Shown here: piece by piece, positions 5,741-48,238 of the stretch | Numbering within the stretch: position 1 is the first letter of the stretch | Layout of the letters: the number at the start of each line of letters is the position of its first letter | NCBI GenBank assembly: GCA_030692765.1 | Contig: JAUYUB010000024.1 | Span: 124,001 to 188,000, forward strand | Reading direction: 5' to 3' | From: Sulfuricurvum sp. | GTDB taxonomy: Bacteria > Campylobacterota > Campylobacteria > Campylobacterales > Sulfurimonadaceae | DNA length: 64,000 nucleotides | Translations under genes and position numbers: made by a program | The notes under the pieces: model-generated | The model's database searches: none | The model's input: only the letters and a program-made list of their open reading frames with translations | Told to the model about the DNA's origin: nothing

Positions 5741-7285
5741 GTGAAAGACGTTAGCATCATCATCCTCGATTTTGGTTCTCAGTATACCCAGCTCATTGCC
5801 AGACGTTTGCGTGAAGACAAAGTGTATTGTGAAGTTTTGCCGTATCGCACGACTTCGGATGCCATCAAAGCCAAAAATCCTAAGGGAATCATTTTGAGCG
5901 GCGGTCCCTCATCGGTTTATAACGAAGATGCGTATACGGTTGATCTTGGTGTCTATGCTCTTGGTATCCCTGTACTTGGGATTTGTTACGGTATGCAGCG
6001 TATCGCCGTTGATTTTGGCGGTTCGGTGATTCGCAGTGACCATCATGAGTATGGTCAAGCAGAACTCACAATCGATTTAACCCAAAATTCTCTCCTTTTC
6101 CAAGGGTGTGAAGATGAGCGTAATGTTTGGATGAGCCATTCAGACAAAGTAGACGTATTACCGGAAGGTTTCATCTCTATTGCTCACTCGACTAACTCCC
6201 CATATGCAGCGATCGCTCATGAAGAAAAAATGGTTTATGCAATGCAGTATCACCCAGAAGTTCACCACTCTGAAGAGGGATACTTGATGTTGCGCAATTT
6301 TGCACTGAACATTTGTGGTGTTACCGAAAAATGGGATATGGGGCATTTCCTCAAAGAGCAAATCGTCAAAATCCGTGCCCAAGTGGGTGATGGAAAAGTG
6401 CTATGTGCCCTTAGTGGTGGGGTAGATTCCAGCGTGGTTGCAGCATTGCTGTATGAAGCGATTGGTGACCAGCTGATTCCAGTATTTGTGGACAATGGTG
6501 TGCTACGTAAAGGGGAGCGTGAATCAGTCGAAAATATTTTCAAAGTTCATCTCAAAGTTCCTCTTGTCGTTGCGGATGCAGCAGATTTGTTTTTGGGCAA
6601 ACTTGCAGGTGTCACCGATCCTGAGACGAAGCGCAAAATCATCGGACACACATTTATCGAAGTGTTCGAGGCAGAGGCTAAAAAACATGAGGGGATTAAA
6701 TTCCTCGCCCAAGGTACATTGTATCCTGATGTTATCGAGTCCATCTCTCCCAATGGTGCATCGGTAACGATCAAATCGCACCATAATGTTGGTGGATTGC
6801 CTGATTGGATGGATTTTGAGCTTATTGAGCCATTACGCGACTTGTTCAAAGACGAGGTTAGACGTTTGGGTACTGAACTAGGGCTTCCTGATTATCTCAT
6901 CAATCGTCATCCGTTCCCAGGACCTGGATTGGCAATACGTATTATGGGAGAAGTTAACCGTCCTGATTTGACGATGCTACGTGATGCCGATGTGATTTTA
7001 CTTGATGAACTTAAAGCCAGTGGTTATTACACCAAAACATGGCAAGCATTTGTGGTACTTCTAAACGTTAAATCTGTAGGAGTTATGGGGGATAACCGTA
7101 CGTATGATAACACGGTGTGTGTGCGTGTTGTTGAGGCCGTAGATGGTATGACTGCAACGTTTGCCCATTTGCCTCATACGTTGCTAGAACGTATCAGCCG
7201 TCGTATTATTAACGAAGTGGACGGGATTAACCGCGTTGTCTACGATATCAGCTCCAAACCACCTGCAACGATCGAGTGGGAATAA
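5741..7285 (+). CDS. guaA: GMP synthase (glutamine-hydrolysing)
   Basis: Converts XMP to GMP using ATP and glutamine in purine synthesis. The 514-aa protein has an N-terminal class I glutamine amidotransferase with the nucleophile in GICYG and the His/Glu pair in [11 protein letters not shown]. It is followed by the ATP-pyrophosphatase P-loop SGGVDSS near residue 225 and the C-terminal dimerisation domain ending KPPATIEWE, the canonical GuaA end. The start is GTG at 5741. hemD follows with its effective start 11 bases after the stop. Full length and intact. Confidence 0.97.
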
Positions 7286-7296
7286 GGGGCACGCGT

Positions 7297-7941
7297 TTGC
7301 GCCCTATCTATCTAATCTCTAAAACTTCATCAGATGAACTGATGGATGACGTTACTCATATTCCTATTCTCTCCATACACTTTTTAACTCCTGTGATTGA
7401 TTTTAATCTTTATGATGGAATCATTGTGACTTCCAAACAAGCAGCTGTTGCATTAAAATTTTACATGCCCGATTGGAATAGACTGAAGGTGGTGTGTGTC
7501 GGTGAATCAACTGCTAAAGTAATGAAGGAATTGGGCGCTCGCCATATTGAGCTAGCCCATGGATATGGGATGAGTATTTTGGAAGTATTGTCTCCTCATG
7601 AGGGAAAATGGTTGTATCTGCGCCCCAAAATGATTGCTTCCTCGTGGCCTGTTCATGCGCGTGAATCGGGAATAGAGCTTGACGAAGTGATTATCTATGA
7701 AACAGCTTGTAATGACGACATTAAAGAAATACAAATAGCGCAAAACAGTGTGCTTATTTTTACATCGCCCTCAAGCGTAGAATGCTTTAGTAAGCAAGCG
7801 GATATTCTACCAACACATGGTGTTATTGTGATCGGAAAAACAACTCAAAATGCACTTCCAAAAGGGGTAAAATCGCTTTTAAGTGCCCAAACGAGTATTA
7901 TTTCTTGCGTAGAAATGGCACGTAAAATAGGGATTTCTTGA
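7297..7941 (+). CDS. hemD: Uroporphyrinogen-III synthase HemD
   Basis: Cyclises hydroxymethylbilane to uroporphyrinogen III in haem, sirohaem and cobalamin synthesis. Family features: RPIYLISKTSSD at the start, GIIVTSKQAAVAL, VCVGESTAKVM and FTSPSSVECF in the second half. The frame is open from GTG 7276 inside guaA, but TTG 7297 has an AAGGGG 7 bases upstream and gives the usual MRPIYLIS start, so I prefer it (214 aa). HemD proteins diverge fast, so the call rests on these short motifs and on length. It probably forms an operon with guaA. Confidence 0.85.
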   Translation: MRPIYLISKTSSDELMDDVTHIPILSIHFLTPVIDFNLYDGIIVTSKQAAVALKFYMPDWNRLKVVCVGESTAKVMKELGARHIELAHGYGMSILEVLSPHEGKWLYLRPKMIASSWPVHARESGIELDEVIIYETACNDDIKEIQIAQNSVLIFTSPSSVECFSKQADILPTHGVIVIGKTTQNALPKGVKSLLSAQTSIISCVEMARKIGIS

Positions 7942-7973
7942 AACTTTATTATCCATATTAAGCTTTTTGAGGT

Positions 7974-7979
7974 TATAAT
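7974..7979 (+). promoter_or_regulatory. -10 box of the 6S-like RNA
   Basis: TATAAT directly downstream of hemD and 7-12 bases before the predicted 5' end of the structured RNA. No -35 match at proper spacing. Confidence 0.55.
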
Positions 7980-7985
7980 TATCTT

Positions 7986-8175
7986 TACCTGGGCGCAGCG
8001 AGTAATCGCATTTGAGGGTTCTACATATACACTTAGTGGTATCGGTAGTCACCTTGGTGTGTCGGTGGTCTCGTTTGAGCGCGAAAGCGCGAGAGATTGC
8101 CGCCGGAGGGGTGCTCGATCTGCTTAATTACGCTTTGAGAACCAAAGCTACTGCGAAAACGCCCGCCTGGGCTTT
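7986..8175 (+). ncRNA. ssrS: 6S RNA (SsrS) candidate
   Basis: A GC-rich, non-coding stretch that folds as one long rod. The closing stem pairs GGGCG (7991) with CGCCC (8160) and CAG (7996) with CTG (8151). GGTTCT (8017) pairs with AGAACC (8138). Then comes a large unpaired bubble (8023-8040 opposite 8121-8137). Above it ATCG (8041)/CGAT (8116), CACC (8050)/GGTG (8110) and CGGTGG (8063)/CCGCCG (8100) pair, and the rod is capped by GCGC-GAAA-GCGC (8079-8090). Closing stem, central bubble and apical stem are the architecture of 6S RNA, which mimics an open promoter and binds sigma-70 RNA polymerase. I recall that in Campylobacterota this gene sits just before purD, as here. Pairings were worked out by eye; ends are approximate. 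Confidence 0.68.
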
Positions 8176-8176
8176 T

Positions 8177-8222
8177 ACCCTTTTAAAATGTCATTTTTGG
8201 TATTTTAAAAGGGTATTATTTT
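8177..8222 (+). terminator. Intrinsic terminator after the 6S-like RNA
   Basis: Perfect 13-bp inverted repeat (ACCCTTTTAAAAT at 8177-8189, its complement at 8202-8214) with a 12-base loop, followed by ATTATTTTTATT. It lies between the RNA and purD. Confidence 0.65.
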
Positions 8223-8240
8223 TATTCAAACGGGGTGTGT

Positions 8241-38516: not shown

Positions 38517-38540
38517 GTGGTGGCTAATCTCGGATTGGTT
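38517..38540. repeat. att core copy 1 (left end of E1)
   Basis: 24 bases identical to 39918-39941, including the 17-base core TGGTGGCTAATCTCGGA that equals the reverse complement of the tRNA-Phe 3' end (48163-48179). Confidence 0.85.
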
Positions 38541-38609
38541 AGATACCAGTCTCAGTCTATCAAAATAGTAATCTGCGAAAAAGCCTGTATTATAGGGCAT
38601 TGCTGACAT
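38518..38609 (-). pseudogene. Orphan integrase leader of E1
   Basis: From ATG 38609 (preceded by AGGAG) the frame reads MSAMPYNTGFFADYYF and then VSNQSEISHH, crossing the att core. It aligns with the E2 leader (M...GFF...SNQSEISHH). In a circular form it would run in frame into an integrase body; here it runs into unrelated sequence. Confidence 0.65.
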
Positions 38610-38648
38610 TTTTATTTCTCCTCTTGTCCTCATTTTTGTATTAAAATT

Positions 38649-38671
38649 TGTATGGAAAATGTATTGAACTT
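38649..38671. repeat. Candidate integrase arm sites, E1 left
   Basis: Two direct repeats with 11-bp spacing, TGTATGGAAAA and TGTATTGAACTT. The second is identical to copies at 40029 and 48091 near the other cores. Confidence 0.55.
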
Positions 38672-38775
38672 GGATGATATGATATTTCATCTGGATTAAT
38701 CTTTAACTAGCTTATTTTATGAGATTTTATAAATCATTTTTGGATGATTTCCCCGTGCCTCTAACACGTCTATGC

Positions 38776-38781
38776 TATAAT
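38776..38781 (+). promoter_or_regulatory. -10 box of the Zeta-like gene
   Basis: TATAAT 36 bases before the ATG; a strong AGGGGAGGGGG ribosome site follows at about 38801-38811. Confidence 0.5.
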
Positions 38782-38816
38782 GTAACTACGATATATAAAT
38801 AGGGGAGGGGGCATAA

Positions 38817-39377
38817 ATGCGATTAACTATCATTGCAGGTGCAAACGGCAGCGGTAAAACGACATTTGCCCTTTCTTATGCCCATTTTAGTGAGGTTGAA
38901 TTTATCAATGCGGATGAAATTGCCAAACAATTAAACCCCGATGATATGGACCATGAAAAGTTCAATGCTGGAAAAATATTTTTACGGCAGATTGAAGAGC
39001 TTTTAAATAAGCGTCAAGACCTTATTCTCGAAACGACGATGAGTGGGAAGTATTTAATCAAAATTATCCAAAAAGCCAAAGAATCGGGATATACGATTGA
39101 TATTTTTTACCTTTACCTTGAAGATGTGACGGATAATATTGCAAGGGTTCAAAACCGTGTTTTTAACGGCGGTCATAACATACCCAAAGAGGATATTATT
39201 CGACGATATTATCGAAGCCGTAACCTTTTCTTCAATCTCTACAAAGAGCTTGCAGATAGATGGTTTTTATTTTTTAATGCAGATGATGAGTTTGAAGAAG
39301 TTGCCAATTTTGCCGATGGTGAATTGACAGTATTGCACGAGCCATATTATGCTATTTTTACGGAGGGTGTTCAATGA
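38817..39377 (+). CDS. Zeta-toxin-like P-loop kinase
   Basis: 186 aa with Walker A GANGSGKTT at residues 8-16, EFINADEIAKQLNP (a Zeta-family Asp/Glu motif) and LILETTMSGK. Zeta toxins phosphorylate UDP-GlcNAc or similar; this compact form belongs to a family commonly annotated as Zeta toxin or 'ABC ATPase'. It overlaps the next gene by 4 bases (ATGA), as toxin-antitoxin pairs do. It is the only intact cargo of remnant E1. The substrate cannot be inferred. Confidence 0.75.
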   Translation: MRLTIIAGANGSGKTTFALSYAHFSEVEFINADEIAKQLNPDDMDHEKFNAGKIFLRQIEELLNKRQDLILETTMSGKYLIKIIQKAKESGYTIDIFYLYLEDVTDNIARVQNRVFNGGHNIPKEDIIRRYYRSRNLFFNLYKELADRWFLFFNADDEFEEVANFADGELTVLHEPYYAIFTEGVQ

Positions 39378-39571
39378 AAACTATTGAAAATTACAAATTC
39401 CGAGATATGATTCTCAAAATCGGAAAAAAAGCGATTAAAGAAGCTCAGGCACGGAGTCTGGCAAATGGCGTTCCAAATGTTTATCGCCGTGACGGAGTTC
39501 CTTATTTTCAGATGCCAGATGGTGAAATCACATCAAAAATACCGAAAGAATATGAAGGTATCTATAATTAA
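39374..39571 (+). CDS. Small partner of the Zeta-like protein (65 aa)
   Basis: Basic N-terminal helix (RDMILKIGKKAIKEAQAR) and a strand-rich end (GVPYFQMPDGEITSKIP). It overlaps the Zeta-like gene by 4 bases. Position and size fit an antitoxin or accessory protein, although classical Epsilon antitoxins precede the toxin and are helical. Role is inference from context. Confidence 0.65.
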   Translation: MKTIENYKFRDMILKIGKKAIKEAQARSLANGVPNVYRRDGVPYFQMPDGEITSKIPKEYEGIYN

Positions 39572-39833
39572 TCATTAATCAGATTTCTTTCAATCTGGAA
39601 ATCGCAAACAACTTGAAGAAGAAATACCCTCTTTAAATATTCGGTCTACGGGTTATTGATAAAGTAATTTTATCGTGTTTGACGAAGTTTTGAGAGTTCA
39701 AAGAAGTTAAAATTTTATTTCGTCTATCAATGGATAATTTTGAATCTTTTGTTTTTAGTGAGTGTTTATAAATTCTGTCATTTATCCGAATATTAAAATA
39801 ATAATAACCGTTTGGGTGATGAATTAAGTATTT

Positions 39834-39868
39834 TGTGTCTAAACTTGTGTCTGAAATGTGTGTAAATT
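39834..39868. repeat. Diverged candidate arm sites in the E1 integrase remnant
   Basis: Three direct repeats with 11-12-bp spacing, TGTGTCTAAACT, TGTGTCTGAAA and TGTGTGTAAATT, at the position equivalent to the TGTATTG repeats of E2 (48069). The spacing is kept although the sequence differs. Confidence 0.4.
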
Positions 39869-39917
39869 TGAAACTATTGGAAGGGATACTCTTCTGAAAG
39901 TCCGTAAAATAGGGGTT

Positions 39918-39941
39918 GTGGTGGCTAATCTCGGATTGGTT
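39918..39941. repeat. att core copy 2 (E1/E2 junction)
   Basis: Identical over 24 bases to 38517-38540 and over 17 bases to the tRNA-Phe end. It is both the right end of E1 and the left end of E2. Confidence 0.85.
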
Positions 39942-40017
39942 CGATTCCGTATTGATAGTAAAAAATCCCATAAAATGAGGATACGATGTCATTTTAGACC
40001 TCCACGATACTTTAAAA

Positions 40018-40040
40018 TGTATTGATATTGTATTGAACTT
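40018..40040. repeat. Candidate integrase arm sites, E2 left
   Basis: TGTATTGATAT then TGTATTGAACTT, 11-bp spacing, about 83 bases from the core and upstream of the integrase leader ATG. The second overlaps the stop codon of the FtsK-like gene. Confidence 0.6.
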
Positions 40041-41605
40041 TATTTGATTTCTTTCTTGATGATGTTCAATTGTTTATGAATTTCGTCTGTATTATAATTA
40101 TTTGTTTTTATAATAGAGTTGATTTTTGTTAATCGACTTCTTAATTCTCTCCGTTTTTCTTCATCCGTTATGGTCGATGTCCTTGAAAATAAATCTTTTC
40201 TCAATTTAACATTGTCAAAATTGGTTATTTTCTTTTCCGTGATTTTAAGAGTGGTAGAAGGGGTTTTATTTTCTGTTAATGGTTTGATAAGGGTTGAGTT
40301 CTTTTTATTCATTGTAGGTGGTGTATTTTCACTAATATGAATGCCTATTTTATCACAAGTGTTTATGTATTCATTGGGAGTAATAAAAGAACTTTGACCA
40401 TATTGAACCAATAAACCACTTGTTGAACTGTTGTCTAAAAATACAAATCGACCAGGACCGAAAGAAGTGGGACTCACATTCCCAATCTTTTCAAGATAAT
40501 CAAGAGAACCAAGACACATTTTAACTCCATCATTATTATCGACTCTTAACAAAATTCGACTTTGTAGGTTTCCACGAAGTTTAGATGAAATTATTTCTGT
40601 TCCACCTCGTTGAGTTTGAATCAACAGTCTGACACCTTGGGAGCGTCCCAATTGACCGATACTCTCAATTTTCAATAACATTTGTTTAAATTGTAAATAA
40701 CCGTCTTTATCAAGTTCTTTTAATGGACAACTTTCAACGACTTCACTCCACTCATCAAAAATCAAAAATATAGGGTCTTTTTCGTATTTTTCCAACCCTT
40801 TATTTTTTAAATATTCCATCCGTCTTTGATTTTCTTTATAAACATAATCGACTATTTTAATCAAATGTTCGACTTTATAACCGACTATAATTTTTTTATC
40901 TATTTTTCCATATTTTTCAAAAGTTAGACCCCCTTTAAAATCTACGAGGAATATATTTTTCACCAAATCAAGGTTGTAAATTAATCCATTTAAAATTTGG
41001 GTAATAAATAAACTTTTACCACTTCCACTTTGTCCATTGATAAAATAATGTGTCATTTTAAAAAGGTCAAGAAATATTTTTTCTCCTAGATGATTAAGAC
41101 CGAAAAAAATAAAACCTTTTTTTAAAAATTCTTCTCCATTCCAATTATATAAATCCAATCGGTCTTTGGTGTCAATAACAATTCCATTATCTTCACATTT
41201 TTCGATTTTAATATGGTCTGTATTTAAATAGTGTTTTATCTGTTCTTTGTTTTTCTCATATAGTTCTAAATCTATTAGCCCCGATTTGTTTTTAATAATA
41301 ATCCGTCCGTCTTTATAACTTTCAACATAGTCGTAATATGTAATTTTTTTTACTTCATACTTCAAATTATTAAAAGTGAAAATATTTTTCTCAACAGTAT
41401 TTTTATAATTGAATGTTCGAGGGAGTTTATAGACTTTATTTTTAAAGTAATCGAAGAAAATAAAATGATGAAGTATTATTCCTCCTACTGTCAGTTGAAA
41501 TATTGAATCTAAATAATGTATCAAAAATTCATTAGTATAGTTTATAGAAATGTATTTGAATAAGATGAATGTTATTAACAATTTTAAAACAATACCTATA
41601 ATCAT
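40040..41605 (-). CDS. FtsK/TcpA-like DNA translocase ATPase
   Basis: 521 aa: two N-terminal membrane helices (about 2-20 and 32-50), then an FtsK/SpoIIIE-type motor with Walker A GQSGSGKS (191-198), IFLVDFKGG (218-226), Walker B IFLIFDEWSE (279-288) and the FtsK signature TQRGGTEIISSKLRGNLQSR (331-350). FtsK-like proteins of this size with membrane anchors drive DNA through the envelope in small conjugative elements (TraB/TraSA of Streptomyces, TcpA of Clostridium). No winged gamma domain like that of chromosomal FtsK is visible. It follows the RHH gene by 9 bases. In the excised circle the integrase leader lies 47 bases downstream. Confidence 0.88.
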   Translation of the reverse strand: MIIGIVLKLLITFILFKYISINYTNEFLIHYLDSIFQLTVGGIILHHFIFFDYFKNKVYKLPRTFNYKNTVEKNIFTFNNLKYEVKKITYYDYVESYKDGRIIIKNKSGLIDLELYEKNKEQIKHYLNTDHIKIEKCEDNGIVIDTKDRLDLYNWNGEEFLKKGFIFFGLNHLGEKIFLDLFKMTHYFINGQSGSGKSLFITQILNGLIYNLDLVKNIFLVDFKGGLTFEKYGKIDKKIIVGYKVEHLIKIVDYVYKENQRRMEYLKNKGLEKYEKDPIFLIFDEWSEVVESCPLKELDKDGYLQFKQMLLKIESIGQLGRSQGVRLLIQTQRGGTEIISSKLRGNLQSRILLRVDNNDGVKMCLGSLDYLEKIGNVSPTSFGPGRFVFLDNSSTSGLLVQYGQSSFITPNEYINTCDKIGIHISENTPPTMNKKNSTLIKPLTENKTPSTTLKITEKKITNFDNVKLRKDLFSRTSTITDEEKRRELRSRLTKINSIIKTNNYNTDEIHKQLNIIKKEIK

Positions 41606-41614
41606 ATATATACC

Positions 41615-41770
41615 TTAAAAAGACAATGATAATTCATTTACTAAACCTTTGTTTTTTAAACCAATTTTTAGTAGTTCAATATAGAAATAAGTAATTTTCA
41701 TATTTTTTGGAGAAGTTTTCTTGATTTCATTATAAAATCTATCCTCAATTTTAATTGTCAATGTTTTCAT
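41615..41770 (-). CDS. Ribbon-helix-helix DNA-binding protein (51 aa)
   Basis: ATG 41770 to TAA 41615. KTLTIKIEDRFYNEIKK followed by ITYFYIELLKIGLKN has the strand-helix-helix order of CopG/Arc-type proteins: a short N-terminal strand for DNA contact, helix A and helix B. Such proteins act as repressors or relaxosome accessory factors. It lies between the OB-like and FtsK-like genes and is spaced for co-transcription. Specific role not determinable. Confidence 0.7.
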   Translation of the reverse strand: MKTLTIKIEDRFYNEIKKTSPKNMKITYFYIELLKIGLKNKGLVNELSLSF

Positions 41771-41803
41771 AGTTTAAACCTTTGTAATTTTTTTATTGTC
41801 ATA

Positions 41804-42061
41804 TCATTTTGATACGACAATTTTTCCACTTGTTTTATAATAAATCTTTCCATTCATTTGAGACATTGAAATTGGAACTGTTAATTTATCACCTTTCTTT
41901 ATTTCATTGTTAAAATATTCTAAATCTATTTTAACTTCCAATACTTCTAAACCACCATTGTCATTTTCATTAAGAAACTGTAATTTTGAAACTTTTTCAC
42001 CTTTGAATTCCGTTGTTTTAATAGAACTCAGTTCCCCTTGTATAAACAATTTACTGCTCAT
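41804..42061 (-). CDS. OB-like small protein, possible ssDNA-binding protein (85 aa)
   Basis: Beta-rich sequence with KLFIQGELSSIKTTEFKGEKVSKLQFLN at the start and KKGDKLTVPISMSQMNGKIYY at the end, resembling the small OB-fold DNA-binding proteins of rolling-circle elements (gene V type). A ssDNA-binding partner would fit the HUH Rep gene. AAGGGAAAG site before the ATG. The fold is inferred from strand pattern, not from a known motif. Confidence 0.6.
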   Translation of the reverse strand: MSSKLFIQGELSSIKTTEFKGEKVSKLQFLNENDNGGLEVLEVKIDLEYFNNEIKKGDKLTVPISMSQMNGKIYYKTSGKIVVSK

Positions 42062-42084
42062 TTTTCTTTCCCTTAATATTATAA

Positions 42085-42180
42085 TTTTCGTAAGAAATAA
42101 CTCTATATCTCTTACTTATTTAGAAGTATAAAAAAAATAATAATTTTTACAAGAAATAATCTTATTTTTATAAGAATTAA
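42085..42180. repeat. Iterated motif in the divergent control region
   Basis: Three direct copies of TTTT-(A/C)-(N)-AAGAA-(A/T)TAA: TTTTCGTAAGAAATAA (42085), TTTTACAAGAAATAA (42145) and TTTTATAAGAATTAA (42166). They lie between the OB-like gene (minus) and the coiled-coil gene (plus). Suited to be operators for the RHH protein or iterons. Confidence 0.45.
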
Positions 42181-42230
42181 TTAATAATATATTTGTTAAA
42201 GTATTGTAAATTAAAAAACAAAGGATTCTA

Positions 42231-42401
42231 ATGTTTGATTTAAAAAGTAAAGAAAGAGAACTTATTGGTCTTAAAAGTCAAATAAAAAAAGTTAAAGAAA
42301 GTATTGAGAACTTAAAAGTAAAAAAGTTAAAGGGTCTTTTGGATGATAAGGAAAGATTAGAGAAGGAAATTAGAGAAGTTAAAGTAAAAAATAAATCATA
42401 A
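42231..42401 (+). CDS. Small coiled-coil protein (56 aa)
   Basis: Only plus-strand gene of E2. ATG 42231 is preceded by AAAGGAT. Heptads of Leu/Ile/Val with many Lys and Glu (ELIGLKSQIKKVKESIENLK) predict one long coiled coil. It starts in the divergent control region with the repeats and ends 55 bases before the Rep gene's stop. No family recognised; a regulator or partner protein is possible. Confidence 0.5.
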   Translation: MFDLKSKERELIGLKSQIKKVKESIENLKVKKLKGLLDDKERLEKEIREVKVKNKS

Positions 42402-42455
42402 TATAAACGGGTTAATGGATTAATAATCCATTAATCATAAATATTCTTCATCCCT

Positions 42456-43985
42456 TTACGATTTTGAATTTTGAATTAAAATTTCTTTTATATGTTCGTC
42501 ATTATTCTGTATGAATTCAATTTTACTGTAATAGTTTAATGAATAATAGTATTTTATCAATTCACTATAATCATCATCAATGTCGTCAATTAATTCAGTT
42601 AATCGTCTATTCTGTTCTGTTCTTAGTTCCATCCGTTCTATTTCAATATCTTCTTTAACCTTTTCAATCGTTAGGGGTTCTGTATCTATTCCTAACAATT
42701 CTATGATGGTATTAATATAATCAATAGAAGTTTTTAATTCGTCTTGTCTATTATTAAATACCTTGTTCTTTAAAAGGTCTTCGTATAGTTCAAAATCATT
42801 ATGGAACTTTTCAAAGTGATAATTACTTTTGAAGTCATGAATTAGATATTTCTTGTTGTTCTCATTGTTAAAATAATAAATCTTATTTTCATCAATCAAC
42901 AGTTTGTTATCTTCAAACATTTTTGAAATTGTATAAAATAAATACTTCTTACCATTGTGTAATTCAGTCAAATCATTATCATTGAATTCATTAATGACAT
43001 TTTCTTTATTGTGTTCATTTTGTTTGAAAAGAGTATAGAATTTATTATTTATTTTTTCTAATTCGTCTTTTGATAATTTATCAGTAAAAAAGTTTGTTGA
43101 GTAAATTTTTTGTCTTATTTTAATTTTTGAGAAAATAAGAGTTTCTTTTGATACATTTTGACGAGGTTTTAATATTTCATTCGGTTTATTGTTGTCATAA
43201 CTTTTCAACATATATTTAAACATATAATCGGTTATGTGTTTTCCGTTTCCTTTGTTATCGTCAATTGTTCTAAAATAAATAAAATTACCTTTTCCTTTAA
43301 TACTTTCCTTGATTAAATAAATATTCTTTTTTTCTTTTTTAAAACTTATTGACCTTTTTAAAATCGTCAATATTTCATATTGATTATTAATTCGTATTTT
43401 AATTTTTTTATCTTTGAAATATTGTTCAATGACTTTAAAGAAATCAACAGTAATAACTAATTCTACTCTACCAATATTATTTTTATTTCTTCCCAATACT
43501 AGACTTTCTATATACTTTATAAAATCATTTTCTTTGTATAGAAAATCTGTTTTATGACAATGTAGATTAAATTTTTTTGTGAGTTCATAAACCCTTATAT
43601 TTTTATAAGATAGTTCTTTGTCATTATTCCGTTTCGTTATTGTCCTAAAATATTTACTGAATTCTTCATATTGTTTTTTAATTTTATCTTCCAATAGTTT
43701 AATGTTATTAATTTTTAGAGGAATATTTAGGATTGGGTCTATTGTTGAAGTATGAAAAATGACATATTTATCTTTTCCTATTTCATTAATTGAACTAATT
43801 TCATTCTGTATAATAGAATGTTTTATAATATGTTGTCTCTTTAATATGTCTTTTAGACTGATGAAAGTATTGTTGTCTTTATTGGTGAAAATATTTAGAT
43901 GTGAATTGTTGATTATTTCATATTCTTTTAAAAAATATTCTTCTCGTAAATTTTTCAAATATTTATTTAAAAATGATTCAGACAC
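42456..43985 (-). CDS. HUH-type rolling-circle replication initiator (Rep)
   Basis: 509 aa. The three motifs of HUH endonucleases are in order: motif 1 VIFHTST (75-81), motif 2 FNLHCHKTDFLY with H142 and H144 forming the metal-binding HUH pair, and motif 3 DYMFKYMLK (253-261), resembling the Y-x-x-K-Y catalytic motif with Tyr254/Tyr258 as candidates for nicking. The C-terminal half is helical and charged. Start GTG 43985 with GGAG upstream. It would nick one strand and start rolling-circle replication of the excised element, or act as a relaxase. The overall family is not one I can name. Confidence 0.75.
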   Translation of the reverse strand: MSESFLNKYLKNLREEYFLKEYEIINNSHLNIFTNKDNNTFISLKDILKRQHIIKHSIIQNEISSINEIGKDKYVIFHTSTIDPILNIPLKINNIKLLEDKIKKQYEEFSKYFRTITKRNNDKELSYKNIRVYELTKKFNLHCHKTDFLYKENDFIKYIESLVLGRNKNNIGRVELVITVDFFKVIEQYFKDKKIKIRINNQYEILTILKRSISFKKEKKNIYLIKESIKGKGNFIYFRTIDDNKGNGKHITDYMFKYMLKSYDNNKPNEILKPRQNVSKETLIFSKIKIRQKIYSTNFFTDKLSKDELEKINNKFYTLFKQNEHNKENVINEFNDNDLTELHNGKKYLFYTISKMFEDNKLLIDENKIYYFNNENNKKYLIHDFKSNYHFEKFHNDFELYEDLLKNKVFNNRQDELKTSIDYINTIIELLGIDTEPLTIEKVKEDIEIERMELRTEQNRRLTELIDDIDDDYSELIKYYYSLNYYSKIEFIQNNDEHIKEILIQNSKS

Positions 43986-44072
43986 ACTATCTCCTTAATT
44001 TACAATACTCTTTATTTCAACGGACAGAAAGAGTTATATATATTTATAAGAAAACAAGGGGATGAAGAACCA

Positions 44073-44137
44073 TTTAAAAATGATAAATCATTTTTAAAGA
44101 ACCATTCAATACTGAATATTATAAATTTATAATATTC
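44073..44137. other. Two perfect palindromes upstream of Rep (candidate origin or terminator)
   Basis: 12-bp inverted repeat with a 2-base centre (TTTAAAAATGAT/ATCATTTTTAAA, 44073-44098), then a 24-bp perfect palindrome at 44114-44137 (half site GAATATTATAAA). They lie in the 187-base gap between the nuclease and Rep genes. Cruciforms of this kind occur at HUH nick sites; a terminator for the nuclease gene is the alternative. Confidence 0.5.
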
Positions 44138-44172
44138 ATTTTAATAAAAACTAAAATATTTAAAAATTAATA

Positions 44173-45138
44173 TTATGAATGAAGAGATTTAATCCATTCC
44201 TTATAAGTGTCAATATTATTGTATGAAGATTTTTCTCTTCCTTCTATTTTTGCCATATCCTTTGTTTGATAGTTCATCCAATAACTATCAAATACTTCTT
44301 TTCCATTATTTCCAAATTCTTTAACGAACAAACCCTCACCTTTTTTTAATCTATTAATATCAGATTCTGAACCAATATTTTTTGTATTACCACTTCCAGG
44401 TCTATCTATTCCTATTTTCCATTTCTCTTGTATGAAAAAATCAAAATCTCTTACAACTGATTGTATATTAGTAAAATTATTCAAATTATATACATTGGTC
44501 TCATTAATAAGGTATGAATCTATAATTGATTTATCAGAAAGAGTTAATATGATAGTTTTATTACATAAACCTACAAAATCATTCCATTTCTCATCGGTGT
44601 CTTCGTTAATGTATGTAATTAAGTTTTTTCGTTGTGTATTGGTTAATTTAAGATTTTTTGTAAATAAGTATTCTTCAATTCTTGTTATATCGGTTCTGGA
44701 ATAAATAATTCCAAAGACATAATGTTTTTCATAGGAACCATAAGGAAATAGAACATTTTTAGTAGATGTTCTATTTCTAAAATACCCAGTAAATGCTCCT
44801 AGTGTCATTCCATTAACATTTGTAGGACTAACTCTATATGTACTTTTTAAATCAACAGCATATTTTTTTCCATCATTGTCAATAAAGGTAATGTCTGGAT
44901 AATAGTTTTGATGTGGTGATAGTTTTAAAGTAAGTCCATTTTTAGAAGCAAATTCTAAAAACTTTGGAAATATCATCAATTCAATAATTTTTGAAACTAC
45001 TTTTGTGTCAGTACTAATTGAGTAAATGTTTTTATAATAATCTATAAATCCTTTCACTGACCAATCTGGACTATCTGGAATACTTAATGTTTTAGTCAAT
45101 TCAGGAATGAATTGATTGAATTTTTCTTCAAAATTCAT
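44173..45138 (-). CDS. EcoRV-family type II restriction endonuclease
   Basis: 321 aa from ATG 45138 (GGAG 7 bases upstream; the frame also opens at TTG 45150). It aligns along its length with EcoRV: TDTKVVSKIIELM/SDTKVLSTIFELF, YYPDITF/HYPDFTL, AVDLKSTY/AIDIKTTY, MTLGAFTGYFRN/FTLGGYTSFIRN, GSGNTKNIGS/GSGNTTNIGS and YNNIDTYKEWI/YNNISEYRNWI. Catalytic Glu53, Asp82, Asp96 and Lys98 match EcoRV E45, D74, D90, K92. The recognition loop GSGNTKN (248-254) is nearly identical, predicting GATATC recognition. An insertion of about 70 residues (near 155-225) is absent from EcoRV (245 aa). The comparison is from memory of the EcoRV sequence. Confidence 0.9.
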   Translation of the reverse strand: MNFEEKFNQFIPELTKTLSIPDSPDWSVKGFIDYYKNIYSISTDTKVVSKIIELMIFPKFLEFASKNGLTLKLSPHQNYYPDITFIDNDGKKYAVDLKSTYRVSPTNVNGMTLGAFTGYFRNRTSTKNVLFPYGSYEKHYVFGIIYSRTDITRIEEYLFTKNLKLTNTQRKNLITYINEDTDEKWNDFVGLCNKTIILTLSDKSIIDSYLINETNVYNLNNFTNIQSVVRDFDFFIQEKWKIGIDRPGSGNTKNIGSESDINRLKKGEGLFVKEFGNNGKEVFDSYWMNYQTKDMAKIEGREKSSYNNIDTYKEWIKSLHS

Positions 45139-45180
45139 ATTTATCTCCAATTATTAATTTAATTTACTATGTTTATTGAT

Positions 45181-45411
45181 TCACCCAACTGAAACATAAT
45201 ATTTTTTTTTATCTTTTTGGTTGATTACACATTCTATTTTTTTCTCTTTTAATAGTTCATTTAATGAAAGTGATACCTGAGTTTTAGATAGTTTTGTTTT
45301 TCTTGTAATTTCTAACATACAATATTCTTGTTTATTTTTTTCAAAAAATATTCTTACTTTTTCGGTAAATTGTTCATCGGCATTTATGAATGTATTGTTG
45401 TAATGATTCAT
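45181..45411 (-). CDS. Winged-helix DNA-binding protein, possible R-M controller (76 aa)
   Basis: The run MLEITRKTKLSKTQVSLSLNELLKEKKIECV is a helix-turn-helix with a following wing, of the MarR/ArsR-like type rather than the HTH_3 type of usual C proteins. It lies between methylase and nuclease genes on the same strand (20 and 42 bases away), where a regulator delaying nuclease expression would be placed. Function inferred from position. Confidence 0.6.
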   Translation of the reverse strand: MNHYNNTFINADEQFTEKVRIFFEKNKQEYCMLEITRKTKLSKTQVSLSLNELLKEKKIECVINQKDKKKYYVSVG

Positions 45412-45431
45412 TTTAAAATCCTTTATTTAAA

Positions 45432-46496
45432 TTATTGGGCAATTATTAAAACTTCTTTTGAGTCCTGTTTTTTTGATAAAACATATTTGTAATCGACAGT
45501 TTCAATATGAACTTTTTTATTATATTTACGAAGTATTTCTGATATTTCTTCTATACTTGGAATCCCATCTTCTCTGTATGAAATAACGATAATGGAATTT
45601 TGAAATTTCTCGATTAATTGTTCAAAACCAGAGGATATATTTTTTTTATCTTCCCAAATAGAATAATTTGGGATTAATCTTTTGTGTTTAGAATTATAAT
45701 CTATTTCATTTTTCCAATTATAATAATTGGTTAAACCATCTAGAAAGTGATAAAATTCTCCATAAATAGTCAATGTCCCTGTTTTAGGTATATATGGAGT
45801 ATCAATATATACTAAATCTGCCTTTATTTCTAAATCAACAATATCACCACAAAAAGATTTATTATTTTTCCCATTGTCAAAAACGGAATTATTAATTTCT
45901 TTTACAAATTTATGAAAATGTTCAACAAATGGTTTGTCCCAAGTTGTCTTATTCCCAAAATTTCGTTTAACATCAGATGTTCTAACATACAAATTTTTTC
46001 TATGAAAAAGGTTATATGGTCTTTTTGAAATACACGACTGATATAAAGCCCAATATAACATTGCTTTTTTGTATTCATTTTTAACTTGATAAATGTTTTG
46101 TGAAACAATATCCAACCATACATTTTCTTCGTCTGTATAATATATATCATGAAATGTATCTTCTATAAAAGATAAATAATTATAGTCAGTGTGTTTTTGA
46201 ATTATATCGTTGAAATCTTCATCAGTTATTTTTTCAGAAGAGTTTTCAATTAGAGATTTCCCAACTTGAAAATTAAATGGTAATCTATCATTTGAATAAA
46301 CTTCCTTTCCCATTTCTTTAAGAGTATATCCGATAGAACTAGTTCCCGAAAAAGCATCAATAGCTGTTTCAAAGTTCAGTTTTTCTAAACTGTGTTTTAT
46401 CCATTCTCGAAGTTTGTATTTACTTCCTTGATACCGTGTTGTGGGTAATTTATGTTTATGAAAGAGTGTAGATTCTTGTTTTATTGATTTTGCCAT
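45432..46496 (-). CDS. N6-adenine DNA methyltransferase (D12/alpha class)
   Basis: 354 aa. Motif X RYQGSK (21-26), motif I AIDAFSGTSSIGY (45-57, SAM binding) and motif IV VYIDTPY (229-235, DTPY instead of the usual DPPY) are in the order X-I-IV of alpha-class (D12, Dam-like) enzymes. It is the partner of the EcoRV-like nuclease downstream and would protect GATATC sites. M.EcoRV is also of this class. Length is slightly above that of M.EcoRV (298 aa). Confidence 0.85.
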   Translation of the reverse strand: MAKSIKQESTLFHKHKLPTTRYQGSKYKLREWIKHSLEKLNFETAIDAFSGTSSIGYTLKEMGKEVYSNDRLPFNFQVGKSLIENSSEKITDEDFNDIIQKHTDYNYLSFIEDTFHDIYYTDEENVWLDIVSQNIYQVKNEYKKAMLYWALYQSCISKRPYNLFHRKNLYVRTSDVKRNFGNKTTWDKPFVEHFHKFVKEINNSVFDNGKNNKSFCGDIVDLEIKADLVYIDTPYIPKTGTLTIYGEFYHFLDGLTNYYNWKNEIDYNSKHKRLIPNYSIWEDKKNISSGFEQLIEKFQNSIIVISYREDGIPSIEEISEILRKYNKKVHIETVDYKYVLSKKQDSKEVLIIAQ

Positions 46497-46553
46497 TTTT
46501 CCAATATCGTTTTTTGTGATGTGGTATAGTATATAGGAATTTTACATAAATAT

Positions 46554-48149
46554 TTATAAATCATATTTAAGTAATTCTATAACTTCTTTTTTTAATTCTA
46601 TTGTTCCTATTTCTCCATTAGAGTATTGAATACTTTGGTCATATTTCAAATCACTATGTCCCATCAAGTATTTAATTGTTAAATGATGATTTGGGTATTT
46701 AAATAATTCATATGAGAAGTTTTTTCTTGTTGAGTGAAATACTTTATCTGTCTCTTTTATAAAGTGTCTTATGTATTCATTTATTCTATCTGAATTTCTA
46801 TCACTGGAACCACTCCAAACCATATAGTCATTTTTTGAATTATAAATATATTTTTCAACGATAGAAATTATTTCTGAATGAATTGGTATTATTCTTTTAG
46901 AAGATGTATTTTTTAAACTTTTACCATTTTCTAAATCTTCAACTAATTCAAAACACATAATTCCTTCAACATTAACTATATTTTCTTTTCTAATTTTACT
47001 TAATTCATTAATTCTCATACCACTATATAGTCCAATTTTTATAATATCAATAATAATTTGTTTATTACCTTTTTTGTAATCATTATTAAATAACAATTCT
47101 AAATCATTTTTCTCAAATCTTTTCCATTCTTTAAGTGGTTTTTGTTTTACAAGTGGTAAAAAATTATTAAAAATATCATTATTAAAAATTTGTTTATTTT
47201 TTAAATAGAAAAAAAACATTTGATAATTTTGAAATAAATTATTAATATAATTATTCATCAATCTAGGAAAGTCTTTTTCATTTAAATTTAAATCTATAAT
47301 TTCTTTAATATTTTTATTATCACATTCTCTAATTTTTATAAAGTTAGAAGGTATTTTTTTAAATTCATCTTGTAAATCAATAAAAAACTTACTTGTAAAA
47401 TTTGTTATATTATAGTCGTGATTATTTTCTAAATAACTTACCAAGTAGTTATATGAAGTTTTCAGATTTTTAATTGAATTATCAGAATACGGTTTTCCAG
47501 TTTTATCTTTGTGTCTTTCACTTTTCCATAATACATAATTTTCCCAGTATTCTTTTAAATTCAAATATTTATTCTTTCTATCATTTATTTCGACAATAAC
47601 TGGTTTATTAGTTTTTATTTCTCTTATTTGTTCATCTGACAAGTCTAATTCATTATTTTCATATTTTAATTTAATATCGTTTTGAATATCTGAAATATTT
47701 TCTATTTCTTGTATTTTTAATTTCTCAATTTTTTCTAATTCTTCTTCTTCAAGTTGTATCTTTTTGTAATGTTTTTCTTGAAGAATTTTAATTTTATTGT
47801 TTATTTCTTCTTCTGTGTGTTCTTTTGGTTTATTCTCTTCGTAGTCAATATATGAAAACATTTTTTTAACCCTTAGTATCTTTAATGTAATTGATAGAGT
47901 TATTTTATCGTGTTCGTGTATCTTTTCATAGTTTAGGGAATTCACTATTAAATCTTTTCGATATATACCAATAGTAATATCTTTCGTTCTGAGTGAATAT
48001 TGGAGTATTTTATTCTTGACACGAATTTGGAAGTAATAATAACCGTTCGAACGAGTTAATAAGTGTCTTGTATTGTAATTGTATTGAAGTTGTATTGAAC
48101 TTTTAATTTTAGGGGAAATTTTAAGGGGGATATATCTCTGAAAGTCCAA
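46554..48149 (-). CDS. Tyrosine recombinase (integrase) of E2, truncated at the 5' end by integration
   Basis: 531 codons from TTG 48149. Catalytic set: Arg379 (SGMRINELS), Lys418, His472 and Arg475 (HSTR), His498 (MGHSD) and Tyr509 (SIQYS). The N-terminal part (about 25-110) is the DNA-binding arm domain; a coiled coil follows (120-180). TTG 48149 has no ribosome site. The frame continues upstream as SEISHHNPYN through the att core and then into tRNA-Phe, where it stops at TGA in the anticodon arm. In the excised circle it joins ATG 39992 with its GGAGG site. In the integrated state transcription could come only from tRNA-Phe read-through. Confidence 0.9.
   Translation of the reverse strand: MDFQRYIPLKISPKIKSSIQLQYNYNTRHLLTRSNGYYYFQIRVKNKILQYSLRTKDITIGIYRKDLIVNSLNYEKIHEHDKITLSITLKILRVKKMFSYIDYEENKPKEHTEEEINNKIKILQEKHYKKIQLEEEELEKIEKLKIQEIENISDIQNDIKLKYENNELDLSDEQIREIKTNKPVIVEINDRKNKYLNLKEYWENYVLWKSERHKDKTGKPYSDNSIKNLKTSYNYLVSYLENNHDYNITNFTSKFFIDLQDEFKKIPSNFIKIRECDNKNIKEIIDLNLNEKDFPRLMNNYINNLFQNYQMFFFYLKNKQIFNNDIFNNFLPLVKQKPLKEWKRFEKNDLELLFNNDYKKGNKQIIIDIIKIGLYSGMRINELSKIRKENIVNVEGIMCFELVEDLENGKSLKNTSSKRIIPIHSEIISIVEKYIYNSKNDYMVWSGSSDRNSDRINEYIRHFIKETDKVFHSTRKNFSYELFKYPNHHLTIKYLMGHSDLKYDQSIQYSNGEIGTIELKKEVIELLKYDL
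48069..48102. repeat. Candidate integrase arm sites, E2 right
   Basis: Three direct repeats at 11-bp (one helical turn) spacing: TGTATTGTAAT, TGTATTGAAGT, TGTATTGAACTT. They lie inside the integrase reading frame, about 61 bases from the core. Confidence 0.65.
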
Positions 48150-48162
48150 ATTATAGGGGTTA

Positions 48163-48238
48163 TGGTGGCTAATCTCGGAATCGAACCAAGGACACGCAGA
48201 TTTTCAGTCTACTGCTCTACCGACTGAGCTAATTAGCC
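48163..48238 (-). tRNA. tRNA-Phe (anticodon GAA), attachment site of E2
   Basis: 76 nt including encoded CCA. Acceptor GGCTAAT pairs with ATTAGCC, then discriminator A and CCA; D-arm GCTC..GAGC, anticodon stem-loop with CTGAAAATC holding GAA, T-arm TTGGTTCGATTCCGAG. The last 17 bases (48163-48179) are the att core shared with 39919 and 38518. The tRNA was kept intact by the insertion. Confidence 0.96.

Follow-up and report, generated by a model that had tools for sequence, protein, structure and literature searches.

We analyzed a 64,000-nucleotide stretch of DNA, here called the window, from a Sulfuricurvum-like genome (GenBank assembly GCA_030692765.1, contig JAUYUB010000024.1, positions 124,001 to 188,000). 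An 8.26 kb island (window positions 39919-48178) is inserted in a tRNA-Phe gene of this genome, with a GC content of 24% inside versus 42% outside. Its minus strand carries genes for an integrase (Int), a methyltransferase, a winged-helix protein, an EcoRV-type endonuclease, a replication initiator-like protein (Rep), an OB-fold protein (OB), a ribbon-helix-helix (RHH)-like protein, and an FtsK-type ATPase. A sequence-only reading had likened this gene set to actinomycete integrative and conjugative elements (AICEs), and all of the genes that it named proved to be open where it had placed them. The features on which our argument depends are as follows:

48163..48238, minus strand: tRNA-Phe(gaa), the integration target (ARAGORN and Rfam).
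48163-48179: att copy at the tRNA-Phe 3' end, 17 bp repeat TGGTGGCTAATCTCGGA.
39919..39935, plus strand: inner att copy, a 17 bp exact match that bounds the 8.26 kb element on the left.
46554..48149, minus strand: tyrosine integrase, 531 aa, adjoining tRNA-Phe (Pfam Phage_integrase 2.9e-10).
43990..44110, minus strand: candidate origin (double-strand origin or origin of transfer, dso/oriT) just upstream of rep, with two hairpins and motif TCTTTCTGTCCGTTG; function predicted.
42456..43985, minus strand: candidate HUH-type replication initiator/relaxase, 509 aa (HxH and YxxKY motifs, profile match, moderate fold support).
41804..42061, minus strand: OB-fold SSB-like protein, 85 aa (AlphaFold model matched to SSB and PriB with Foldseek and VIA-align).
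41615..41770, minus strand: RHH-like protein, 51 aa, with homologues in both same-genus elements.
40040..41605, minus strand: candidate coupling protein, 521 aa, a membrane DNA translocase of the FtsK/SpoIIIE type (Pfam FtsK_SpoIIIE 7.3e-9).

The integrase thus lies at a tRNA gene, as the sequence-only reading had it, and no mating-pair or capsid genes were recognized within the 8.26 kb. So minimal an element had seemed unexpected in a diderm host, and we found that it belongs to a recurrent family. Nine elements of 6.0-11.5 kb were bounded in four Campylobacterota families, integrated at tRNA-Phe, -Ser, -Leu, or -Met or at the transfer-messenger RNA (tmRNA) gene and flanked by border repeats of 12-22 bp (weakest in L045, 12 bp, and L008, 14 bp). 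OB, FtsK, and Rep were each found in 9/9, with Rep being of either the window type or a Phage_GPA type. Int, Rep, OB, and FtsK are the only genes common to all nine, and the 6.0-6.4 kb members encode little besides these four and a protein of 43-69 aa. No mating-pore or capsid genes were found in any of the nine. By sequence comparison, the predicted Int, Rep, OB, and FtsK genes are therefore shown to form a conserved linked set at tRNA or tmRNA genes, bounded by att repeats.

A census across Campylobacterota, which the sequence-only reading had proposed, identified a strong OB match in 10 of the 397 sampled species, each within ~1.5 kb of an FtsK gene of the element clade. Relatives of the window Rep were found in two other genomes of the genus, as well as in Sulfurospirillum, Campylobacteraceae, and Arcobacter; relatives of FtsK and OB widen the host range to at least four families. 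Mapping host families onto the FtsK tree required seven label changes (minimum three), which is no better than shuffled labels, and this discordance implies that the module moves between families. We found no description of the gene set in Epsilonproteobacteria or Campylobacter in the open-access literature searched, subscription papers not being searchable.

The assignment of the ATPase to FtsK is firm, based on the Pfam match and a GQSGSGKS Walker A motif. The two membrane helices that had been reported for it are clear, as N-terminal hydrophobic helices, in close relatives, whereas only the first passes a simple hydropathy scan in the window copy. A dN/dS of 0.08 between two relatives indicates strong purifying selection. 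In our tree the element ATPases form one clade (support 99/98) apart from chromosomal FtsK, TcpA, TraB, EccC, and phage FtsK. The best match of the family profile in PDB is TcpA, the pCW3 coupling protein (6o1x, E 1.7e-31), and this alignment is collinear past the motor domain; against the same profile TcpA scores ~112 bits, chromosomal FtsK 99-112, and TraB 34-47. Most family members end at the motor domain and so should lack a domain like the one with which TraB binds its recognition sequence (TRS), making TraB-style clt recognition unlikely; the window ATPase has a C-terminal extension of ~110 aa, with counterparts in L043 and L046 only. Scanning six elements for clt-like clusters of 8-bp repeats (exact 8-mers only) found none. 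On these grounds the proposed kinship with AICEs is not supported. Searches of phages and plasmids with FtsK returned only distant FtsK-domain proteins, many of them on Firmicute or actinobacterial replicons. Three candidates were left out of the family: the FtsK-like genes of L052 and L053, whose neighbours are PAPS-reductase- and SMC-like (by inspection, DNA-modification or defence-type), and L051, a 1733 aa chimera.

An HUH fold for Rep is probable on three partial lines of evidence, drawn from sequence and modelling. Residues H142-x-H144 and Y254-x-x-K-Y258 are invariant among six relatives. The Rep profile matches, at E 8e-5 and in register across motif I and the HxH motif, sister Reps that themselves pass Pfam Phage_GPA. 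Finally, the top structural match of the Rep model is 2x3g (SIRV1 ORF119, which we take to be an HUH Rep), covering 113/116 residues at Z 7.3, below the noise line of Z = 8; matches to Rep domains of adeno-associated virus are also below that line (Z 5.4-5.7). The model is poor outside approximately residues 60-260, and the whole model gave nothing under 1e-3 in Foldseek. The HUH call made from the sequence is accordingly upheld at the level of motif and profile, with fold matches falling short. Rep is under strong purifying selection (dN/dS = 0.17).

Among four sister Reps tested, those of L048, L045, and L040 pass, or at least approach, the Pfam Phage_GPA cut-off, and the window-type Rep of L046 has no match. 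Searches of plasmids, phage records, and IMG/VR turned up nothing related to the window-type Rep. Upstream of rep, three elements have the two-hairpin layout, with fold z values of -2.5, -4.5, and -3.5, and share motif TCTTTCTGTCCGTTG. Separately, we observed an inovirus-like contig of 6.4 kb, L060, which carries a Phage_GPA-type Rep along with genes resembling Zot and secretin; its Rep is the nearest viral one to those of the sister elements that we found.

The suspected OB-like protein was borne out by structure prediction: its AlphaFold model (pLDDT 83) has the OB fold of SSB and PriB (Foldseek E 6e-4, Z 9.9). Only the fold search succeeded; the OB profile had no convincing match by sequence among solved structures. 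For the 51 aa protein, the RHH call stands as a sequence pattern conserved in the two same-genus elements, and no family match was found. We also observed that the OB genes of two species (L007:8000-8260 and L008:7821-8081) are 99% identical in DNA (dS 0.04) beside FtsK genes with a dS of 0.51, which suggests patchwise recombination.

We propose, with a probability of roughly 0.58, that these islands make up a family of small integrative elements spread across Campylobacterota and working like non-canonical integrative and mobilisable elements (IMEs). Int would excise a circle, and Rep would nick the hairpin origin upstream of rep, drive rolling-circle replication, and serve as relaxase. The OB protein may coat the single strand or help unwinding, a HelP-like role, while a membrane FtsK hexamer would take the element DNA and pump it through the inner membrane. 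These steps of excision, nicking, OB-aided strand displacement, and FtsK pumping are proposed by analogy with ICEBs1 (PMC3542172) and streptococcal mobilisable elements (PMC5357655). Because the element has no recognizable outer-envelope channel, the outer-membrane route must come from elsewhere: either the secretion or pilus machinery of a transient helper, or release followed by competence uptake in the recipient. We favour these two routes, the second of which has a precedent in ICEth1 (PMC5365140).

Several observations weigh against this proposal. Excision, replication, and transfer are all predictions from sequence. The cores of two same-genus elements are 86% identical and one host region 88%, that is, equally diverged, so this test for recent within-genus transfer was negative. 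VirB4 (PF03135) is absent from 13/13 carrier genomes. A single carrier, G199, has VirB10 and a strong P-loop gene of the TraG type, and in it no OB gene was found beside FtsK; most carriers therefore lack a helper of their own. Against the ATPase profile, the scores of TcpA and chromosomal FtsK overlap, and the tree, which does not resolve the sister group of the element ATPases, does not put TcpA in that position. A strong TraG-type P-loop gene is also present in G009, a same-genus non-carrier; helpers may therefore circulate.

The absence of VirB4 could instead point to transfer that needs no type IV secretion system (T4SS), in which the FtsK pump alone exports the DNA and recipient competence takes it up, as in the transjugation of ICEth1 by TdtA in Thermus. 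All 13 carriers encode ComEC, FtsK is the sole transport-type protein in cargo-poor members, and ICEth1, too, is small, low in GC, and carried at a tRNA, with restriction-modification (R-M) genes and an FtsK-HerA pump in a competent host (PMC5365140). However, TdtA resembles HerA and has a NurA-type gene next to it; it is not, like the element ATPase, a protein whose best Pfam family is FtsK_SpoIIIE and which has a pair of membrane helices. No NurA match was found among the element genes. ComEC is also widespread and non-specific, being present in 10 of 14 control genomes. We regard this explanation as unlikely. Doubtful, too, is the broader idea that these are T4SS-free, self-transmissible diderm elements, in which an FtsK pump of a previously undescribed clade would export the element DNA together with the element's own Rep and SSB-like protein, and machinery of the host or recipient, for example competence or type IV pili, would provide the passage across the outer membrane.

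The resemblance of the sister Reps to Phage_GPA and to the inovirus Rep of L060 (30% identity) lends limited support to the filamentous-phage alternative that the sequence-only reading had raised. As a satellite, the element would use Rep and OB to make single-stranded DNA, which an SSB-like protein fits, and a helper inovirus would package it with the assistance of the ATPase. Yet coat, Zot, and secretin genes were unrecognized in all bounded elements, no relative of the window-type Rep was found in phage records or IMG/VR, and the FtsK is not Zot-like. Nor are Zot genes at the inovirus level (over 44 bits) commoner in carriers (2/13) than in non-carriers (4/28), and none was found among the element proteins or in the window genome. 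We consider such a satellite very improbable.

We give equally low odds to an island of the chromosome that uses its FtsK for maintenance inside the cell, through segregation or the handling of circle dimers, and that spreads mainly by natural transformation. FtsK proteins act in segregation in other systems, and the ComEC encoded by all carriers would fit transformation. On the other hand, no requirement for a membrane pump is known in the segregation of a 6-11 kb circle, and FtsK is kept in every bounded element in tight linkage to OB and Rep. Least credible of all is AICE-type conjugation, in which FtsK would move double-stranded element DNA like Streptomyces TraB: an integrase at a tRNA, a rolling-circle-type Rep, and a single FtsK-like protein follow the same minimal logic, but the ATPase clade lies apart from TraB with low TraB scores, no TraB-like C-terminal domain or conserved Spd-like genes were found, nor any clt-like repeat cluster in the six elements scanned for exact 8-mers, and Streptomyces has nothing that corresponds to the outer membrane.

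The left border of the island has a further history. The 17 bp att repeat is present three times (48163, 39919, and 38518), with the inner copy lying within a 53 nt repeat of 83% identity. Empty tRNA-Phe sites in same-genus genomes are similar to the sequence left of 38518, and for this reason 38518-39918 is taken as the remnant of an earlier insertion. As read from these repeats, there are two tandem insertions at tRNA-Phe, a 1.4 kb remnant and the intact 8.26 kb element. The remnant comprises the following:

38518..38534, plus strand: outer att copy, the left half of the tRNA-Phe site in its ancestral state, with a flank like empty congener sites.
38535..39918, no strand assigned: remnant element, with a kinase-like gene, a 65 aa open reading frame (ORF), and a truncated integrase start.
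38817-39377: zeta/AAA kinase-like gene (Pfam Zeta_toxin 1.7e-9).
39374-39571: 65 aa ORF following the kinase-like gene.
39633-39992: truncated integrase start spanning the inner att copy, a 119 aa piece matching the integrase N-terminus (7.5e-16).

The kinase-like gene and the 65 aa ORF (38817-39571) have a host-like GC content and are a possible toxin-antitoxin or addiction pair.

Between Int and the candidate origin, the intact element carries R-M genes, which would be cargo for addiction or defence:

45432..46496, minus strand: D12-class adenine methyltransferase (Pfam MethyltransfD12 3.5e-16; PADLOC MTase_II 1.1e-60).
45181..45411, minus strand: small winged-helix protein, possible R-M control protein (weak matches to winged-helix regulators; predicted role).
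44173..45150, minus strand: EcoRV-type restriction endonuclease (Pfam Endonuc-EcoRV 2.6e-87).

GATATC sites number 0 in the element and 20 in the 64 kb window; the absence from the element, where we estimate ~2.5 from base composition, is suggestive only. DNA methyltransferase or restriction-type cargo was also observed in L043 (2479-4515) and L045 (14728-15750), which suggests that R-M cargo is frequent in the family.

Two other observations concern relatives of the element. Three sister elements encode a small, conserved lipoprotein with a glycine-rich hydrophobic stretch (L044:12698-13057, L045:12201-12434, and L048:10380-10736), a possible accessory envelope protein. In another family, a tRNA-Leu island (L009:4337-6169 and 7182-8231) contains a degraded relative of Rep next to a relaxase-like gene with an HYH motif, but no FtsK of the element clade; it may be a related element that uses another mobilisation module.

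With their Int, Rep, OB, and FtsK core, these 6-11 kb diderm elements would extend the FtsK-pump principle across an outer membrane. They offer a very small system for studying element movement by a DNA pump and a Rep, and they represent an unnamed vehicle for R-M genes in Campylobacterota.

We also compared the family with known systems. In the open-access literature searched, single-protein TraB transfer has been described only from multicellular actinomycetes (PMC5704250). AICEs of the pSAM2 type and TraB plasmids have in common with our elements the minimal set of an Int, a Rep, and a single FtsK-like protein, located at a tRNA. In the Campylobacterota elements, however, the ATPases are not of the TraB clade, no TRS-binding domain, clt, or Spd genes were found, and the hosts are diderms, with relatives in Sulfuricurvum, Sulfurospirillum, and Arcobacter, instead of actinomycetes. 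ICEth1, beyond the likenesses and the different pump noted above, reportedly does not replicate after excision (PMC5365140). Inoviruses such as L060 have a Rep like those of the sister elements, together with the coat, Zot, and secretin genes that the elements lack. The small Staphylococcus and Streptococcus plasmids p5GD01, SAP110B, and pSMQ173b have adjacent rep and ftsK genes, in some cases separated by a gene of 80-90 aa, though their Rep families are not those of the Campylobacterota elements; by inspection, the intervening gene of the Staphylococcus plasmids is unlike the OB family in sequence and was rejected as a relative.

Firmicutes provide the nearer comparisons. In ICEBs1, the genes for HelP, ConQ, and NicK are neighbours (PMC3542172); the OB-FtsK-Rep order of L043, L046, L095, and L097 (the last from the cultured Arcobacter caeni RW17-10) is that of helP-conQ-nicK. 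This module of ICEBs1 and Tn916 thus likewise joins a small helper protein to an FtsK-like coupling protein and an HUH relaxase/Rep. It differs in that ICEBs1 has its own pore and that NicK is of the Rep_trans/MobT type rather than Phage_GPA-like or of the new type seen here; the OB protein corresponds to HelP as a small protein encoded at the equivalent position.

TcpA-class streptococcal IMEs (Coluzzi et al. 2017, PMC5357655) share a tyrosine integrase, a relaxase of the rolling-circle-initiator type, an FtsK-related coupling protein, a lack of mating-pore genes, tandem arrays, and integrase swaps. They differ in their Gram-positive hosts, in relaxases assigned to MobT, PF01719, PHA00330, and PF02407 (the Rep subfamily described here, HUH-type by motif and profile, is absent from the list for known IMEs), and in a described set without an OB gene; the Campylobacterota ATPase clade is also separate from the TcpA sequences that we used. 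Published descriptions confine TcpA-type FtsK-related coupling proteins to some of the systems of Gram-positive bacteria (PMC12857230, PMC5357655). In the open-access literature searched, the combination of integrase, nicking enzyme, SSB-like protein, and membrane DNA pump has so far been described in Gram-positives. The TcpA-class mobilisable elements of Firmicutes and the helP-conQ-nicK module of ICEBs1 and Tn916 (PMC5357655, PMC3542172) are a closer functional parallel than the AICEs.

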